From assembly GCA_035710515.1 (NCBI GenBank), contig DASTDE010000001.1, forward strand, positions 806,001 to 870,000: DNA of 64,000 bases, read 5' to 3'. Under the pieces are notes generated by a model, which worked only from the letters and a program-made list of their open reading frames with translations, was not told where the DNA came from and ran no database searches. Below are positions 3,935 through 43,983 of this stretch, one piece after another. The stretch is from Candidatus Rubrimentiphilum sp. Lineage in GTDB: Bacteria; Vulcanimicrobiota; Vulcanimicrobiia; Vulcanimicrobiales; Vulcanimicrobiaceae. The position numbers and the translations under genes were made by a program. The first letter of the stretch is position 1; each line of letters starts with the position of its first letter.

Positions 3935-3941
3935 GCACGAT

Positions 3942-4003
3942 GTCATCGTGAGGTATCGAACGACCGCGAGCGATAGCGAGCGGCCCTGAGGTATCGAAGG
4001 GCA
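3942..4003 (+). repeat. dispersed repeat, intergenic copy before recG
   Basis: This copy begins GTCATCGTGAGGTATCGAA, continues through a GCGAGCGATAGCGAGC internal palindrome-like block and ends GGTATCGAAGGG. It fills the whole gap between panE and recG. The final GAAGGG lies about five bases before the recG ATG, so the repeat itself may supply the ribosome binding site. Related copies are at 4162, 28976, 43116, 43243, 45566 and 48737. Confidence 0.85.
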
Positions 4004-4005
4004 GC

Positions 4006-6162
4006 ATGAACCTCACGGATCTCGCGGGTGTCGGAAAAGAAACGGCAGAGCGTTTTGTCGAGCTCGGCATCGAAACGCCGCTCGATTTATTGAACGACTT
4101 CCCATTCCGCTACGACGACTTGCGGATCGTTACGCCGGCGGCAGAGCTCGGTATACCCCGACCCCTCGTTACCTCGGGGCCGCTCGCTGTCGCTCGCGCC
4201 CCTTCGACAGGGGCTCAGGACTCGATACCTCACGATGACAAGCGTTCGATACCTCACGATGACAGCGTTGACAGCCCGGAAGAAAATGCCGTCGGTACCA
4301 TCGTCTGGACGCGGGAAAGACGTGCGCGGCGGTTGGCGATCGTTGAAGCGGAGATAGCCGACGACTCCGGCACCTTCGTCGCAAAATGGTTCGGCCGCAG
4401 CTATTTGATGGGCGCCCTGCGCAAAGGCATGCGAGTCTTCGTGCGCGGCCGCACGCAGCGCACGCTGGCCGGGGCCGTTATGAATGTCGCAACCCACAAG
4501 GTGCTGCCTGACGGTGAAAGCTATCGCGGCGAAATCGTGCCGGTCTACCCGGCCGGAAAAGACCTGACCTCGCGCAAGATCCGCCAAGTCGTCCAACGCA
4601 ACTTGCCCAAGCTGCTTGCGCTCGTGGGCGAGGAGCCGCTGCCGAAGGATATACTAAGGAAGCGCAAATTTCCGGCGGTGCAGGACGCATATCGCGAGAT
4701 GCACGCGCCGCAGACTCCTGAGACGGCGGAAAAAGCGCGCGAACGGTTCATCTTCACGGAGTTTTTGGCGCTGGCATTGGCCGCGCAAATGAAACGTCAA
4801 GCACGCGCTATCGAACGCAATGCTCGCGCGCTTCGCGTTCCGGGCGAACTGCTGGCTGAACTGCAGCGCGAGATTCCATTCCCGCTCACCGCCACACAGC
4901 GACGCGTGATCGCCGAGATTTGGAACGACATGGCGCAGGACGCGCCGATGAACCGGCTCTTGCAGGGTGACGTCGGCAGCGGGAAGACACTGGTCGCAGC
5001 GGCGGCGATTCTACTGGCCGCGCGCAACGGCGTCCAGTCCGCTTTGATGGCGCCGACGGAAATTCTGGCTGCCCAGCACGCCGCCAAGCTCTCCCCGCTG
5101 CTGATGCCGTTCGGAATCGCGGTGGAAGCGATCTTCGGCAGCCAAAGCGCGAAGTCACGCGCGAACGCGGTAGCGCGTTTGGCGGGCGGCGAAGCTGCGG
5201 TTGCGATCGGTACGCACGCGTTGCTGACGCAAGGCGTGGATTTCGCGCGCTTGGGGCTCGTCATTATCGACGAACAGCATCGCTTCGGCGTCGAGCAGCG
5301 TGCCCGGCTGCGGGCCAAAGGGACCGCGCCGCACACGCTCCACATGACGGCCACGCCGATACCGCGCACCCTCGCACAATCGATCTACGCGGATCTCGAT
5401 CTTTCCGTGATCGACGAGCTGCCGCCGGGGCGGTCGCCGATAGAGACCTACACGCTGCGCCGCAGCCGCCTGCCGAAAGCCTATGAGTTCGTGCGGAAGA
5501 ACGTGGCGCTGGGACGTCAAGCCTACATCGTTGCGCCGGTAATCGATGAGTCCGAGCATGCACTAACGAGCGTCGTTGCCGAGCAAGAACGGCTGCAGCG
5601 CGAAGTCTTTCCCGAATTGAAACTCGGCCTGCTTCACGGCCGGATGCCGTCGCGTGAAAAAGAGAGCGTCATGCAAAGCTTTGCGCGCAATGAAGTGCAG
5701 GTGCTCGTCTCCACAACGGTCGTTGAAGTCGGCGTAGACGTGCCGAACGCCAGCGTGATGATCGTGCTCGATGCGCAGCGCTACGGGCTTTCGCAGCTGC
5801 ATCAGCTTCGCGGGCGCGTTGGACGCGATACGTCACAGTCGTACTGTCTGCTGATCGCGCCGGATGAGGCCGCCGAGCTCGAACGCCTGCAGATTCTATC
5901 TGAGTCGAGCGACGGGTTCGAAATCGCAGAAGAAGACTTGCGCCTGCGCGGGCCGGGCGAGTTCGCGGGTACGGCGCAATCGGGCTTGGCAAGTTTTCGC
6001 GTTGCAGACTTAGTGCGCGACATCGCTATCTATCGGGATGCAAAGGCCGCTGCAGAAGAGATCGTCGCGCAAGATGCCGGCCTCAGGCTGCCCGCTCATG
6101 CGGGGCTGCGCTTGTTAGTTGAAGGAGAGCCGAGCGCTAGGGCCATGCTGCTCAGCTCTTGA
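4006..6162 (+). CDS. recG: ATP-dependent DNA helicase RecG
   Basis: RecG is a superfamily 2 helicase that remodels stalled forks and branched DNA. The 718-residue protein has a helix-hairpin-helix/wedge-like N terminus, Walker A GDVGSGKT at 321-328, the DEQH box at 422-425 within DEQHRFG, and helicase C motifs including VLVSTTVVEVGVDVPNA and QLRGRVGRD. The wedge (OB) domain is interrupted near residues 53-86 by low-complexity sequence with two SIPHDD units. It is encoded by an antisense copy of the dispersed repeat, exactly in frame. The ATG overlaps the end of another repeat copy. The downstream M16 gene follows after 11 bases. Confidence 0.96.
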   Translation: MNLTDLAGVGKETAERFVELGIETPLDLLNDFPFRYDDLRIVTPAAELGIPRPLVTSGPLAVARAPSTGAQDSIPHDDKRSIPHDDSVDSPEENAVGTIVWTRERRARRLAIVEAEIADDSGTFVAKWFGRSYLMGALRKGMRVFVRGRTQRTLAGAVMNVATHKVLPDGESYRGEIVPVYPAGKDLTSRKIRQVVQRNLPKLLALVGEEPLPKDILRKRKFPAVQDAYREMHAPQTPETAEKARERFIFTEFLALALAAQMKRQARAIERNARALRVPGELLAELQREIPFPLTATQRRVIAEIWNDMAQDAPMNRLLQGDVGSGKTLVAAAAILLAARNGVQSALMAPTEILAAQHAAKLSPLLMPFGIAVEAIFGSQSAKSRANAVARLAGGEAAVAIGTHALLTQGVDFARLGLVIIDEQHRFGVEQRARLRAKGTAPHTLHMTATPIPRTLAQSIYADLDLSVIDELPPGRSPIETYTLRRSRLPKAYEFVRKNVALGRQAYIVAPVIDESEHALTSVVAEQERLQREVFPELKLGLLHGRMPSREKESVMQSFARNEVQVLVSTTVVEVGVDVPNASVMIVLDAQRYGLSQLHQLRGRVGRDTSQSYCLLIAPDEAAELERLQILSESSDGFEIAEEDLRLRGPGEFAGTAQSGLASFRVADLVRDIAIYRDAKAAAEEIVAQDAGLRLPAHAGLRLLVEGEPSARAMLLSS
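4162..4263 (-). repeat. dispersed repeat inside recG, antisense to the gene
   Basis: The reverse complement reads GTCATCGTGAGGTATCGA twice (24-base spacing), then a GCGAGCGACAGCGAGC block and GAGGTAACGAGGGG. This is the same architecture as the copy at 3942 in the opposite orientation. It spans about 102 bases, a multiple of three, so the recG frame is kept. Confidence 0.85.
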
Positions 6163-22627: not shown

Positions 22628-22710
22628 CGAGGCTAGGAACCGGGATAGCCCGGCGCTCGCTTTTTGGTCAGGTTAATCGCTCGGCCGGACTATCCCGGCT
22701 TCCAGCCTCG
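22628..22710 (-). promoter_or_regulatory. long imperfect hairpin in the leader of the ATP-grasp-like gene
   Basis: Arms 22628-22654 and 22684-22710 are inverted copies of 27 bases that match at 23 positions, sharing CGAGGCT, CCGGGATAG and CCGGC. The loop is 29 bases. It lies between a gene ending at 22717 and the ATG at 22516, so on the minus strand it would form in the 5' leader or read-through RNA. It could be an attenuator, a riboswitch stem or a repeat. No U-tract follows it on that strand. The remaining bases to 22516 show nothing else clear. Confidence 0.55.
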
Positions 22711-27390: not shown

Positions 27391-28239
27391 GTGACGCGGA
27401 AACCTTTTGGCCAAACGGCCGTTGCTGTGCCGGTTATCGGGCAAGGCACGTGGGACATTCCCGAGAGCGGGCACCGGCGGGCCGAGGCGATGCGCGCGCT
27501 GCGCCGTGGAGTCGAGCTGGGCATGACTCATATCGACACCGCGGAGATGTACGGCGCCGGGGCCGCCGAGGAGATCGTCGGCGAGGCGCTGGCAGCCGTT
27601 CCGCGCGACTCGCTTTTTATCACGACCAAAGTTCTTCCCGAGAACGCTACATATAAAGGAACGATCGCGGCCTTGGAGCGTTCGTTGAAGCGGCTGCGCA
27701 TGGAGTACGTCGACCTGTACTTGCTGCACTGGGCCGGTTCGCATCCGCTCGCCGAAACGATGCGCGCGTTAGAGGATCTCGTTCATCAGGGAAAGACGCG
27801 TTTCATCGGCGTCAGCAATTTTGATGTAGACGAAGTGCGTGAAGCCGAGTCGCACCTGCGCAAGGTTAAACTCGCATCCAACCAAGTGCTCTACCACCTG
27901 GCCGAGCGCGGCCCCGAAGTGAACCTGCTGCCCTACTGCCGCGAGCGCGGGATCGCGCTTGTCGCGTACACGCCGTTTGGCCGCGGGCGCGTGCTGGGTC
28001 CGGACTCGCCGGGAAAACCGGAGCTCGAACGCATTGCAAACAAACACGGAAAAACCGCGCGGCAGGTGGCGCTGAACGCATTAACTCGCGACGCCGCCGT
28101 CTTCACAATTCCCAAAGCTGCAACCGTTGCGCACGTCGAGGAAAACGCCGGCGCCGCGGGGTGGGAGATGGACGCGGAAGACGTGGCGGCGATCGACGCC
28201 GCCTTTCCCGTAGTCGAAGGTCCCCTTGCAACGTTGTGA
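27391..28239 (+). CDS. aldo/keto reductase
   Basis: A 282-residue NADPH-dependent reductase. The catalytic tetrad is visible: Asp and Tyr in THIDTAEMYGAG, Lys in ITTKV and His in LYLLHW. The cofactor loop has a VALNALTRD and FTIPKAAT segment near the C terminus. GTG start. It overlaps queG by 14 bases. The substrate is unknown. Confidence 0.9.
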   Translation: MTRKPFGQTAVAVPVIGQGTWDIPESGHRRAEAMRALRRGVELGMTHIDTAEMYGAGAAEEIVGEALAAVPRDSLFITTKVLPENATYKGTIAALERSLKRLRMEYVDLYLLHWAGSHPLAETMRALEDLVHQGKTRFIGVSNFDVDEVREAESHLRKVKLASNQVLYHLAERGPEVNLLPYCRERGIALVAYTPFGRGRVLGPDSPGKPELERIANKHGKTARQVALNALTRDAAVFTIPKAATVAHVEENAGAAGWEMDAEDVAAIDAAFPVVEGPLATL

Positions 28240-29407
28240 TCCGGCCGCGATTAAAAAGCTCGCGCGAGAGAAGGCGCTGGAGCTTGGCGCGTCCGATGTG
28301 CGCGTAGCCTCTGCTCATGATGGCGGCGCTGTTCGCGCGTCGTTGCGCGAGTCGTTTGCGCGCGGCGACCTCGCAACTTGGCCGTACGACGACGAGTATG
28401 CGCGCAAGGCGGCCGATCCGTCGCACGTGCTGCCCGACGCGCGCAGCGTGATCTGCATCGCGGTGTCCTACGGTGGCGATACGCCTGAAGTTCACCCTCT
28501 CGAAGGGCGAGTTTCAAACTACGCGTGGTCCGCGGATTACCACCAACGCGTGAAGTCGCTCCTGCGCGAGGTCGCAGCCCAAATCGACGCAGCCGCCGGT
28601 GCGCCGGTTACGGCGATTGCCTGCGACACCAAACCGATCGCCGAGCGCGCCTTCGCGGCGCGCGCCGGCCTGGGCTGGATTGGAAAGCACACCAATCTCA
28701 TATCGCCTCGCTTTGGTTCGTTCGTCTTCCTCGGCGAGATCGTTACGAAACTCGAGCTGCCGCCGGATTCGCCGCTGAAAAAAACGTGCGGCTCATGCAC
28801 GCGCTGCATTCCGGCGTGCCCCACGGGCGCGCTCCGCGGCGACTACACGATCGATGCGACGCGCTGCATCGCCGATTTAACGCAACGCACGGACGCGATT
28901 CCGCGCGATATGCGGCCACTGATTGGCACGTGGGTCTGGGGCTGCGATCTCTGTCAACTCGCATGCCCTCCGAATGTCATCCTGAGCTTGTCGAAGGACC
29001 CTGAGCACGGCGCGGTAAGCGCCGCTGACGAGGGGACGCACATAGCGCAGCCATCCAAAGAAACCTCGACTCCGGAACTCGTTCGCTTGCTGCATTTGCG
29101 CAGCAGTGAGTTTAAACGACACTACGCTCGCTCGGCGATGGGCTGGCGCGGTGGTGCGATATTGCGGCGCAACGCCGCCGTCGCGCTCGGAAATGCACTG
29201 GATCGAGCCGCAGTCCCGGCGCTCGCGCGATCGTTGGAAGAGGACCCGCACGCGCTCGTGCGCGCTCACGCCGCGTGGGCGCTCGGACGCATCGGTTCGC
29301 CCGCTGCGATCCAGGCGCTGCAGCTCCGCCACGATTCGGAGGCCGATCCATCGGTACGCGAAGAGATTGAATCGGCGCTGGAACCGTTCGCTATCGCCGG
29401 GCGTTAA
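28226..29407 (+). CDS. queG: epoxyqueuosine reductase with C-terminal HEAT repeats
   Basis: QueG reduces epoxyqueuosine in tRNA to queuosine using cobalamin and two 4Fe-4S clusters. The clusters are in CGSCTRCIPACP (residues 188-199) with C214, and WGCDLCQLACPP (C240, C243, C247). The catalytic domain ends near 250, and HEAT-like repeats (NAAVALGNAL and AAWALGRIGSPAA) follow. Between them lies NVILSLSKDPEHG, the translation of a dispersed repeat copy. The start is likely the TTG at 28226, the only start in reach of the conserved N terminus. The gene for cobalamin adenosyltransferase is at 51133. Confidence 0.92.
   Translation: MQRCDPAAIKKLAREKALELGASDVRVASAHDGGAVRASLRESFARGDLATWPYDDEYARKAADPSHVLPDARSVICIAVSYGGDTPEVHPLEGRVSNYAWSADYHQRVKSLLREVAAQIDAAAGAPVTAIACDTKPIAERAFAARAGLGWIGKHTNLISPRFGSFVFLGEIVTKLELPPDSPLKKTCGSCTRCIPACPTGALRGDYTIDATRCIADLTQRTDAIPRDMRPLIGTWVWGCDLCQLACPPNVILSLSKDPEHGAVSAADEGTHIAQPSKETSTPELVRLLHLRSSEFKRHYARSAMGWRGGAILRRNAAVALGNALDRAAVPALARSLEEDPHALVRAHAAWALGRIGSPAAIQALQLRHDSEADPSVREEIESALEPFAIAGR
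28976..29036 (+). repeat. dispersed repeat inside queG, sense orientation
   Basis: GTCATCCTGAGCTTGTCGAAGG begins this copy, followed by ACCCTGAGCACGGCGCGG and a GCGCCGCTGACGAGGGG tail. It encodes VILSLSKDP and the following residues (about 251-270), between the cluster-binding domain and the HEAT repeats. The same type of insertion peptide is known from annotated proteins of other bacteria. Confidence 0.85.
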
Positions 29408-29415
29408 GGAGCGGC

Positions 29416-30057
29416 ATGCAGATTTCACGATTTCTCGCCGCCGTCGCCATAGCGGCCACGCTCTTGCTGGGCATGAGCCCAATCAGTCGAGCCGCTGAGC
29501 CCGTCAGCCCCGCGCTTCAGAAGCTCATCGCGTTAAACGATCGCCTCCACAGTTATACTGCGGACGTTCGCGCGGACGTTGTGATGCATTCCTTTCCGTA
29601 CCTCGGCGCGACGCTGACCGGCACGTACTACCACAAAGAGCCGAACAAGAACAAGATCGTCTTCACCGGCGGAGTTCCTCTGATTGCGAACCAGTTCAGC
29701 AACGTCTACCCGCGCGTGGAGAGCCCGTCACGCTGGAACGACGTCTACGCCATTACGGTTGTAAAGGACGACGGGAAGTACACGAGTTTTAAAATGGTGC
29801 CTCGCAATCCGGGCCGTATCGAGCACGTTGATGCCAAAGTTGCGGACCAGTCCGGCGAACTCGCAGAGCTGCGTTGGAACTATACCGGCGGCGGGTACGC
29901 GACGCTGGACCAAAGCTACGGCAAAGTCGGCGCATACTGGCTCGTCACGCATCAAACGGGTCACTTCCAAGACTCCAACTATAACGCGGACGTCACCTCG
30001 ACGTTCAGCAATTTCAAAGTAAACGCCCAGATCCCCGACTCAATCTTCGCGGAGTAG
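29416..30057 (+). CDS. exported LolA-like protein
   Basis: A 213-residue protein with a signal peptide ending SRAAE. The mature part begins LNDRLHSYTADVRADVVM, typical of LolA/LolB-like lipid-binding folds that hold hydrophobic groups, and continues with several beta-strand segments. LolA shuttles lipoproteins to the outer membrane; here only a similar fold is indicated. GGAG lies upstream of the ATG. A palindromic element starts one base after the stop codon. Confidence 0.6.
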   Translation: MQISRFLAAVAIAATLLLGMSPISRAAEPVSPALQKLIALNDRLHSYTADVRADVVMHSFPYLGATLTGTYYHKEPNKNKIVFTGGVPLIANQFSNVYPRVESPSRWNDVYAITVVKDDGKYTSFKMVPRNPGRIEHVDAKVADQSGELAELRWNYTGGGYATLDQSYGKVGAYWLVTHQTGHFQDSNYNADVTSTFSNFKVNAQIPDSIFAE

Positions 30058-30222
30058 GCTCGCTCCGAGAAAGACCCTGCTCCCGAGAACCGCTGGCAAA
30101 ATTACGTCCTGAAATTTTGCCGCTTGACTGCTTTCTCGAGATAACAAAGTTTTGAAGTCGACATCCTGTCGAGCTCGAGAAAGTCAGACATTCTCGGGAG
30201 CAGGGTCTTTCTCGCAGCGAGC
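30058..30222. repeat. 165-bp element of nested palindromes upstream of moaA
   Basis: Outer arms 30058-30089 and 30191-30222 are inverted and match at 31 of 32 bases. Inside are hairpin 1 at 30095-30121 (9-bp stem GGCAAAATT/AATTTTGCC, 9-base loop) and hairpin 2 with arms 30131-30140 and 30174-30183, which encloses a third perfect 6-bp hairpin at 30158-30172 with a 3-base loop. The whole could fold as a multi-branch cloverleaf in DNA or RNA. Only this copy is in the window. It may be a MITE-like element, a structured RNA or a strong terminator/leader for moaA. Confidence 0.85.
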
Positions 30223-30231
30223 TTCCGGGGA

Positions 30232-30255
30232 CAGGTCGGCCGCCGGGGAGGCCTG
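30232..30255 (+). promoter_or_regulatory. GC-rich hairpin over the purine-rich stretch before moaA
   Basis: CAGGTC at 30232-30237 can pair with GGCCTG at 30250-30255 (with one G-U pair), enclosing GGCCGCCGGGG. GGGGAGG at 30245-30251, the only Shine-Dalgarno-like sequence upstream of the GTG at 30268, is mostly inside this hairpin and is rather far from the start. It may limit moaA translation together with the palindromic element above it (inference). Confidence 0.4.
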
Positions 30256-30267
30256 AATCCACTGGAT

Positions 30268-31284
30268 GTGGCCCTGACGACCATCGATCTGACGCGCGCG
30301 CCGCTGGCCGATCAATTTAACCGTCCAATCACGTACCTGCGTATCTCGGTTACGGACAAGTGCAACTTGCGCTGCATCTATTGCATGCCCGAGAGCGGTT
30401 TGCCGTGGCTGCCGAAGTCAGAGATCCTTACGTACGAAGAGATCGAGGAGATCGTGCGAGCCGCCGCATCGGCGGGCGTTCGCAGCGTACGGCTGTCGGG
30501 CGGCGAGCCGCTGATTCGCCGCGACCTGCACGGCTTGGTATCAGCTATCAATGCGATCGACGGTATCGAAGACATCTCGCTTTCGACGAATGGACTGCTG
30601 CTCGCCGATCAGATCGAAGAGTTGGTCGCCGCAGGTTTGCGCCGCGTGAACGTGTCGCTCGATACGCTGCGTCCCGAACGATTCGAACAGATCGCGCGCC
30701 GGCCGGGTTTGGATCGCGTTCTTGCGGGAATTGACGCCGCGATCGCTCGCGGTTTGGCGCCCGTTAAAATCAACGTCGTCGTCATGCGCGGGCAAAACGA
30801 CGACGAAATTGCAGACCTTGCGGAGTGGACCAAACGGCAATCCGTGTACGTGCGGTTTATCGAAGTCATGCCGGTTCACGAGAACCTCGGCGTGCAGCGC
30901 GATTCCTATGTGAGTTCGGATGAAATCTTAGAGCGCATGCGATCCATCGGCGATCTGCAACCCGTTATCGGTCCGGGCGGAAACGGGCCTGCGCGCTATT
31001 TCGCCTTTGACGGAGCTCCGGGTGCGGTCGGCGTCATCAGCCCGCTGTCGCATGATTATTGCGAGCGGTGCAACCGCGTGCGCCTAACGGCCGACGGACG
31101 ACTGCGATTATGTCTCTTCGGCGATCAGGACATCGATTTGCGCGCGCCCGTACGCAATGGCGCCTCGACCGGCGACCTCGTCGAGATTTTGCGCTCGGCG
31201 ATGCTGATCAAGCCCGAGCGCCATCACTTGCGCCTAGGCGAGACCTCCTCTCGCATGCGGGCCTTCTCCGAAATCGGCGGCTGA
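30268..31284 (+). CDS. moaA: GTP 3',8-cyclase MoaA
   Basis: MoaA is a radical SAM enzyme that starts molybdenum cofactor synthesis from GTP. The 338-residue protein has the SAM cluster motif CNLRCIYC (C near 32, 36, 39), GGEPLIRRDL, LSTNGLLLADQ and the C-terminal second-cluster cysteines in HDYCERCNRVRLTADGRLRLCLF. The terminal GG tail of active MoaA is visible (EIGG). GTG start. The other cofactor genes moaD, moaE and moeB are 4-7 kb upstream on the same strand; moaC was not found here. Confidence 0.95.
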   Translation: MALTTIDLTRAPLADQFNRPITYLRISVTDKCNLRCIYCMPESGLPWLPKSEILTYEEIEEIVRAAASAGVRSVRLSGGEPLIRRDLHGLVSAINAIDGIEDISLSTNGLLLADQIEELVAAGLRRVNVSLDTLRPERFEQIARRPGLDRVLAGIDAAIARGLAPVKINVVVMRGQNDDEIADLAEWTKRQSVYVRFIEVMPVHENLGVQRDSYVSSDEILERMRSIGDLQPVIGPGGNGPARYFAFDGAPGAVGVISPLSHDYCERCNRVRLTADGRLRLCLFGDQDIDLRAPVRNGASTGDLVEILRSAMLIKPERHHLRLGETSSRMRAFSEIGG

Positions 31285-39788: not shown

Positions 39789-39944
39789 ATGCTCGTGCTC
39801 ACCCGTAAAGTGAATCAGTCGATCGCAATCGGCGACGACGTGCGGATCGTTGTCGTGGCAATCGAGGGCGACCAGGTCAGGCTCGGCATCGAGGCACCCC
39901 GCGAGGTCGCCGTCGACCGGTCGGAGGTTCGCGAGAAGTCCTAA
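39789..39944 (+). CDS. csrA: carbon storage regulator CsrA
   Basis: A 51-residue RNA-binding translational regulator. [15 protein letters not shown] at the N terminus and [18 protein letters not shown] at the C terminus are the family signature, with the L4/R6 and R44 positions used for RNA contact. It is about ten residues shorter than E. coli CsrA, lacking only the variable tail. GAAGGAGA precedes the ATG. No flagellar genes (its common neighbours) are in the window. The next gene on the plus strand is rpsB. Confidence 0.9.
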
Positions 39945-42997: not shown

Positions 42998-43225
42998 ATG
43001 CCCGAAGTCCAAGCGCGCCGGATGCTCTCCGGCCGCATTGGCGCATTTTCCGTCCTCGCGCCCGTAGGCTCGTTCGCCGGAAAAGGCACACTACGCGTGC
43101 TACGCGTCACCACTTGTCATGGTGAGGTTGCTTGTCATCCTGAGGTATCGAAGGACCCCGAGGTAACGAGGGGCGAGCAACTCGAGCTAACCTGCGGCTA
43201 TGAATCCTACGAGCGCATTAACTGA
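42998..43225 (+). CDS. small conserved-looking ORF interrupted by a repeat
   Basis: A 75-residue ORF in frame with frr, 24 bases after its stop. Residues 1-36 (PEVQARRMLSGRIGAFSVLA, then GTLRVLRV) and 60-75 (LELTCGYESYERIN) look like ordinary coding sequence. Residues about 40-59 (CHGEVACHPEVSKD) are the translation of a dispersed repeat. The stop overlaps the uppS ATG by one base (TGATG), which argues that it is translated and coupled. I do not recognise the family. Confidence 0.6.
   Translation: MPEVQARRMLSGRIGAFSVLAPVGSFAGKGTLRVLRVTTCHGEVACHPEVSKDPEVTRGEQLELTCGYESYERIN
43116..43176 (+). repeat. dispersed repeat between frr and uppS, in the small ORF
   Basis: GTCATGGTGAGG at 43116 and GTCATCCTGAGGTATCGAAGG at 43134-43154, then ACCCCGAGGTAACGAGGGG. 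It belongs to the same family as the recG and dxr copies. A facing partner with CTCAGGATGAC at 43243-43266 lies inside uppS, so the two form an inverted pair around the end of the small ORF. Confidence 0.85.
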
Positions 43226-43983
43226 TGGCTCGAGTATTGCAGCCCTTCGTCTCCGCTCAGGATGACAAAACGGAACTCGATCTCGCCAAGCTCCCGCGTC
43301 ACGTCGCGATCATTATGGACGGCAACCGCCGGTGGGCGAAAAGCCGGGGTGTGCCCGCGATAGAAGGTCACCGTCGCGGGATGCTTGCGCTGCGAGAAGT
43401 AACGCGCGCGTGCAGCGATCTCGGCATTCCGATTTTAACCGTCTACGGTTTCTCCACCGAAAACTGGCGCCGCGACGCGACGGAGATCTCGCTGTTGCTC
43501 GACCTGTGCGTGTATTTCGCGCAGAACGAACTCATCGAACTGAGCCGCAATAACGTACGCGTAAACGTTATCGGCGCGTATCGCGCCCTGCCGCAGAGTT
43601 CGCGAGAGGCTCTCGATCGCTTGATGGAGCGAACCGCCGGCAATACCGGTCTGGTGCTCAATCTGGCCGTCAACTACAGCGCTCGCGCCGAGTTGCAGCG
43701 CGCGGTCAAAGCGATTGCGGCGGATGTGGCGTCTGGCGTTTTGCAGCCCGACGCGATCGATGACGCGACCATTTCGTCGTATCTCTACACCGCCGATCAG
43801 CCCGATCCGGACATGCTCATCCGTCCGGGCGGCGAGCACCGGCTCTCAAACTTTCTTCTTTATCAACTCGCTTACACCGAGCTCGTGATGAGCGACGTGT
43901 TCTGGCCGGACTTTGGAAGGGACGAATTCATGCGTACGCTGCTGGAGTTTCAGAAGCGGCAGCGGCGCTTCGGGGGCGCGTGA
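43225..43983 (+). CDS. uppS: isoprenyl (undecaprenyl) diphosphate synthase
   Basis: UppS makes undecaprenyl diphosphate, the carrier for cell-wall sugars. The 252-residue protein has the catalytic HVAIIMDGNRRWAKSRG (Asp near 33), LTVYGFSTENWRR, RPGGEHRLSNFLLYQLAYTEL and the terminal RFGGA. Residues about 7-14 (PFVSAQDD) come from a reverse-orientation repeat copy at 43243-43266, and no other start lies between the ATG at 43225 and the conserved core. The stop overlaps the cdsA GTG. Confidence 0.95.
   Translation: MARVLQPFVSAQDDKTELDLAKLPRHVAIIMDGNRRWAKSRGVPAIEGHRRGMLALREVTRACSDLGIPILTVYGFSTENWRRDATEISLLLDLCVYFAQNELIELSRNNVRVNVIGAYRALPQSSREALDRLMERTAGNTGLVLNLAVNYSARAELQRAVKAIAADVASGVLQPDAIDDATISSYLYTADQPDPDMLIRPGGEHRLSNFLLYQLAYTELVMSDVFWPDFGRDEFMRTLLEFQKRQRRFGGA
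43243..43266 (-). repeat. dispersed repeat arm at the uppS N terminus
   Basis: The reverse complement reads GTCATCCTGAGC then GGAGACGAAGGG. It is the outer core of the same repeat family, in frame in uppS and pointing toward the copy at 43116. Confidence 0.7.

Follow-up and report, generated by a model that had tools for sequence, protein, structure and literature searches.

Comparative evidence for a dispersed family of intergenic palindromes with variable arms and an invertible conserved core in Candidatus Eremiobacterota

The window, the whole stretch of 64,000 nucleotides analysed here, contains at positions 30058-30222 a palindrome which, by comparison of about 133 copies, we assign to a previously unrecorded family of structured, dispersed, invertible and intergenic elements in one family of Eremiobacterota. 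The best reading, to which we give a probability of about 0.4, is a dispersed invertible RNA element presenting candidate CsrA-type hairpins, its transcription and CsrA binding being predicted.

The palindrome is real. It is the top-scoring inverted repeat in an ungapped scan of the 64 kb window, and the fold of 30040-30280 reaches -125.9 kcal/mol against -82.3 +/- 5.0 kcal/mol for shuffled versions (n=200, z -8.7, 0/200 as stable). An earlier, sequence-only reading had described outer arms matched at 31 of 32 bases and a TCCTG common to the loops; both descriptions are borne out, the former by 30058-30089 against 30191-30222 with 101 nt between, the latter in P2 and P5. Of its three inner hairpins, P2 and P5 are present together with stem P3, and the third (P4, about 30141-30153) is weak and behaves unlike the other stems across copies. 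The pair adjoining the loop in P2 of the window copy is T.T. The features are:

30058-30222, no strand assigned: whole element, 165 bp (inverted repeat, fold, and covariance-model match at 30074-30206, 138 bits)
30058-30089, no strand assigned: left outer arm P1, sequence specific to the locus, 31/32 bases pairing with the right arm
30090-30190, no strand assigned: conserved core, 101 nt (second copy in the genome, family-wide conservation)
30092-30123, minus strand: hairpin P2, minus-strand loop C[AGGAC]G, the five-base A-GGAX form (plus-strand 30105-30111)
30128-30187, no strand assigned: stem P3, enclosing P5 (30128-30140 paired with 30174-30187)
30143-30157, no strand assigned: conserved AACAAAGTTTTGAAG, almost without change among 28 copies and perhaps forming a weak hairpin (P4)
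30158-30172, minus strand: hairpin P5, minus-strand loop C[AGGAT]G (plus-strand 30162-30168), a strict A-GGAX site
30191-30222, no strand assigned: right outer arm P1, complementary to the left arm
39789-39944, plus strand: csrA gene, 51 aa, candidate partner outside the element (PF02599, 84.2 bits)

BLASTN against the genome and its relatives recovers scattered copies within this genome and in other species of its genus. The second copy in the genome is found as a 94% identical stretch, and the left arm (30058-30089) has no further match in the genome at E <= 1. A covariance model (R1), built from 28 copies and used to search the genome and 98 relatives, finds four copies in the window's genome (Candidatus Eremiobacterota) and matches in 39 of the relatives, all of one family, with no match in the other families among the 98. 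Two sister genomes of another genus (g7) hold 33 and 26 copies among the matches listed. Many contigs of G046 (L177, L179 and others) end within the core, so that its copy number is probably underestimated. Named matches to an exact pattern are mostly Candidatus Eremiobacterota; 7 of the 37 lie in records without that label (Chlorobiota, Pirellula, Gloeocapsa and Prochlorococcus among them, two labelled just "bacterium"), and some of these are probably due to chance. No copy was found in the viral contigs, plasmids and phages searched, and carriage by phage or plasmid was rejected for want of a match. In the covariance alignment 47 of 52 consensus pairs have changed on both sides; paired cells amount to 94.9%, against 71.5% in shuffled alignments and 34-48% with partners slid, some of the margin over the slid alignments being expected because the model structure derives from the same sequences.

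The MITE-like repeat proposed by the sequence-only reading is accepted as a dispersed repeat, with four copies here and up to 33 in relatives, and not as a MITE. The terminal arms differ in every copy, so that the shared terminal inverted repeats of a MITE are missing; the empty sites of L002 carry no target-site duplication, clean empty sites being few and the G046 site of L142 possibly a deletion; and many loci are old and vertically inherited.

Core and arms appear to have separate histories. The arms comprise 3055 Watson-Crick pairs in 91 copies and are mostly 24-56 bp long; their sequence is different at every locus, with near-perfect complementarity kept. Orthologous loci were identified through their flanks. 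For the closest species pair, G012 and G046, orthologous cores are 92-100% identical (most 97-100%), flanks 88-94% and arm segments 73-100%. The ortholog is the best match in every case, and the loci of this pair are therefore taken as vertically inherited; within genus g1 the ortholog is the best match for most pairs, not all. Orthologous cores are mostly 97-100% identical against about 93% for coding flanks, which points to purifying constraint on the core. Among paralogs with a core identity of at least 95%, arm likeness is 0.57, against 0.56 after shuffling, and the window copy and the second copy of its genome have 99% identical cores and unrelated arms. Two accounts fit: copying or conversion of cores between loci, leaving the arms behind, or very fast drift of the arms. 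Long core-less hairpins are rare, with 6 in about 1 Mb of sequence that is partly redundant; arms thus go with the core, and insertion of the core into existing hairpins was rejected on the same ground. An origin of the arms as inverted target duplications, hinted at by L142 versus G046, was also set aside: the L002 arms are missing at its empty sites, and a deletion may account for the G046 site. It is doubtful that L002 is a fresh insertion, as an orthologous copy (L100) exists in another genus.

Some single loci deserve mention. Short core-less palindromes lie where relatives have the element in L161 (G005, site of L002) and in L154 (G001, before moaA), the latter a 22-bp palindrome kept where the outer arms would sit; both are possibly remnants of lost elements. 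In G002 (L168) the site of L002 is occupied not by the element but by an additional gene, about 800 bp long and an alpha/beta-hydrolase as judged by eye. At the locus after rho, L006, L015, L109 and L116 form one orientation group and L112 and L113 the other, and their cores belong to different subfamilies (64-77% identity), a pattern resembling exchange of the core while related arms stayed in place.

Both core orientations relative to the flanking genes occur at 13 of 25 orthologous loci, and ortholog pairs with flanks at least 85% identical divide into 19 with the same and 21 with opposite orientation. Direct reading of L142 against L171 and L187 gives flanks in the same direction and cores on opposite strands, at a core identity of 1.00. 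Assembly error may mimic inversion in metagenome assemblies where perfect arms exceed the k-mer length, although inversions are common in genus g1 too, where the arms carry mismatches. Paired, two-sided arm changes are seen between orthologs. Template switching between inverted repeats is known to make arms alike and to turn spacers round (PMC8604942, PMC8794818); homogenised arms and inverted spacers are both found here between close relatives, and by this analogy template switching is likely to be the cause of inversion and arm matching. The published inverted spacers measure a few bases, whereas here a spacer of 101 nt has apparently been inverted repeatedly.

The two strands are not equivalent. 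Arm mismatches on the plus strand comprise C.A 130, C.T 62 and C.C 29 against G.T 23, G.A 10 and G.G 5, i.e. 221 with C and 38 with G, about 6:1. Within the inner 32 bp of the arms the ratio is 210:25, and farther out it is about 1:1. The same bias is present in P2, P3 and P5, and between orthologs G>A and T>C both exceed their counterparts. If folding of the minus strand matters, an excess of C-type mismatches and of G>A and T>C is what is expected, and RNA of the minus strand is the more stable in 118 of 132 copies. These comparisons show a constraint specific to minus-strand folding; mutation bias alone is less likely, with G loss and C gain both contributing to the asymmetry. P4 (30141-30153) is reversed, with G.T 34 versus A.C 5 on the plus strand, opposite to all other stems, so that a different role is possible for the conserved AACAAAGTTTTGAAG.

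The loops of P2 and P5, read on the minus strand, match the CsrA consensus sequences (PMC7705225). An A(N)GGAX loop on a C-G pair, the five-base form included, is a high-affinity CsrA/RsmE site (PMC4005645). Counted with at least three stem pairs, such loops number 208 on the minus strand and 0 on the plus strand of 133 copies, against 0.0015 per core in shuffled cores; each of the four copies in the window's genome has one strict site. The csrA gene lies 9.6 kb from the element. CsrA is matched in G000 and most of the family, and has no match in G015, G048 and some less complete copy-bearing genomes. Two strict sites occur in 3 of 19 copies from G015, G031, G033 and G048, which have no CsrA match, versus 77 of 114 elsewhere; a scarcity of two-site copies where CsrA is unmatched is only suggestive, as few genera are involved and some genomes are incomplete.

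According to the RNA/CsrA reading, template switching between the arms during replication would keep the arms complementary and invert the core. The minus strand would work as RNA, made by read-through from neighbouring genes when orientation allows, and its two hairpins would bind CsrA, so that each copy could act as a CsrA decoy or as a CsrA-responsive 3' region, switched on or off by inversion. The E. coli rRNA operons are a published precedent for multi-copy CsrA-binding RNA made by read-through (PMC8144298). The main weakness is that core orientation does not follow gene direction (about 18 to 13 at co-directional loci); for that reason the sense transcript of many copies, the window's included, would carry the complementary strand. 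The mismatch bias, moreover, is alike in all gene contexts, whichever strand the neighbours transcribe, which is not predicted for a read-through RNA. Genus g10 (G015, G048) keeps copies despite lacking a CsrA match, and G.A and G.G are enriched on the minus strand to the same degree as G.U, a pattern that a DNA hairpin explains no worse than RNA wobble does.

These same observations (indifference to gene direction, equal bias in all contexts, equal excess of G.T, G.A and G.G) speak for an element acting at the level of DNA, as does its dispersal in g7. The folded minus strand would be recognised as single-stranded DNA by a recombinase or a structure-specific protein, its GGA loops being read by protein, and the element would be mainly selfish or site-like. 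The DNA structure target of the sequence-only reading thus returns, in a single-stranded form, as a serious rival, if a somewhat unlikely one. Its difficulties are the conservation of cores at old loci, unexpected for dead selfish copies, the match of the loop shape to a known RNA-binding site, the absence of copies from viral contigs, plasmids and phages, and the lack of a REP-type Y1 transposase. The latter (PF01797) is missing from all g1 and g7 genomes and from 59 of the 61 family genomes searched, and a RAYT-REP system was rejected accordingly.

Position relative to genes bears on a further alternative. By a simple gene caller of our own, 36 loci are flanked by convergent genes, 32 by co-directional and 3 by divergent ones, and the arms lie at stop codons or close to them. 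The neighbours, named from sequence by us, are housekeeping-like (rho, nuoD-nuoE, pyrK-pyrD and others). The 3'-end position, the near absence between divergent genes, the copies inside operons such as nuoD-nuoE, the long stems of free sequence and the ERIC and NEMIS precedents (PMC2229807) would all suit a REP/ERIC-like 3'-end or intercistronic mRNA hairpin that serves stability or processing (e.g. by RNase III on the long stem) independently of orientation. Core and loops would then be minor, and their standing as the most conserved part would be left unexplained, as would the minus-strand bias; we consider this explanation distinctly improbable. A strong terminator was rejected, as copies are found within operons.

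The palindrome is not an element of moaA. Its left arm follows directly on the upstream stop (TAG, 30055-30057), as the sequence-only reading had it, and the downstream gene is indeed moaA; the upstream gene, called LolA-like, could not be confirmed as such and encodes a 213-aa protein without a Pfam match. The GC-rich sequence covering the Shine-Dalgarno of moaA is not part of the element, and by eye relatives do not share it in the corresponding intergenic region. A molybdenum-cofactor regulatory RNA of moaA, also proposed, could appeal to the 45 bp between element and gene and to the same site being filled in 4 of 7 same-genus species, and is highly improbable: the Rfam covariance models find only two tRNAs in the window, with no Moco RNA motif and no other family at gathering score, and only chance snoRNA matches around the element at E up to 10, G001 and G004 lack the element before moaA, and other copies follow unrelated genes, a distribution wrong for a Moco riboswitch.

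Other repeats in the window were noted as well. A dispersed TGTCATCCTGAG / TGTCATCGTGAG repeat occurs at 28975-28986, 43133-43144 and 43256-43267 and in one-mismatch forms at 3941, 4229, 4253, 45586 and 45607, which makes 8 places in 64 kb where 0.13 would be expected; the ORF 28226-29407 contains one of them, coding for ...NVILSLSKD... At 3937-4268, near two tRNA genes, long inverted repeats with arms of 26 and 37 bp are nested and consist partly of the TGTCATCGTGAG repeat, and 22628-22710 holds an imperfect 27-bp inverted repeat with a 29-nt spacer.

That the copies form a genome-wide set of invertible candidate CsrA-binding 3' elements, each flipped by template switching between its own arms, is the fullest version of the RNA/CsrA reading and a doubtful one. 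If true, the transcripts carrying CsrA decoys and the amount of free CsrA would vary between lineages, like a distributed phase variation without a recombinase. Should the RNA/CsrA reading hold, the family would be a new means of distributing the binding sites of a global regulator along a chromosome, and this in a phylum for which most knowledge comes from metagenomes. In any case the family is a large natural collection of cases for studying template switching between inverted repeats, a process mostly observed with spacers of a few bases, and for studying how apparent compensatory change arises.

Among known systems, YPAL / RU-2 of Yersinia (about 168 bp; PMC2229807) resembles the element in being of similar size, palindromic, intergenic and dispersed, and in being thought to be transcribed with upstream genes. 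It has target-site duplications of 3-26 bp, whereas the empty sites read here have none, and differs from the element, whose arms vary per copy and whose core is conserved and inverting. REP sequences with Y1 transposases (PMC3733652) are likewise palindromic repeats outside genes, but measure 20-40 bp against 165 bp, and the Y1 family is absent from the g1 and g7 genomes searched. RsmZ and CsrB-type RNAs (PMC4005645) share A(N)GGAX loops of five or six bases on a C-G closing pair; the element, in contrast, presents two sites in each copy, shows no sequence relation to Rfam families, and occurs as many dispersed copies with no obvious promoter of their own and no fixed orientation. ERIC and NEMIS/Correia (PMC2229807) are also small and dispersed, and their transcripts form long stem-loops beside genes, but they possess terminal inverted repeats and target-site duplications, whereas the ends of the element are its variable part: the usual rule for repeats is reversed, with ends that vary and a middle that is conserved.
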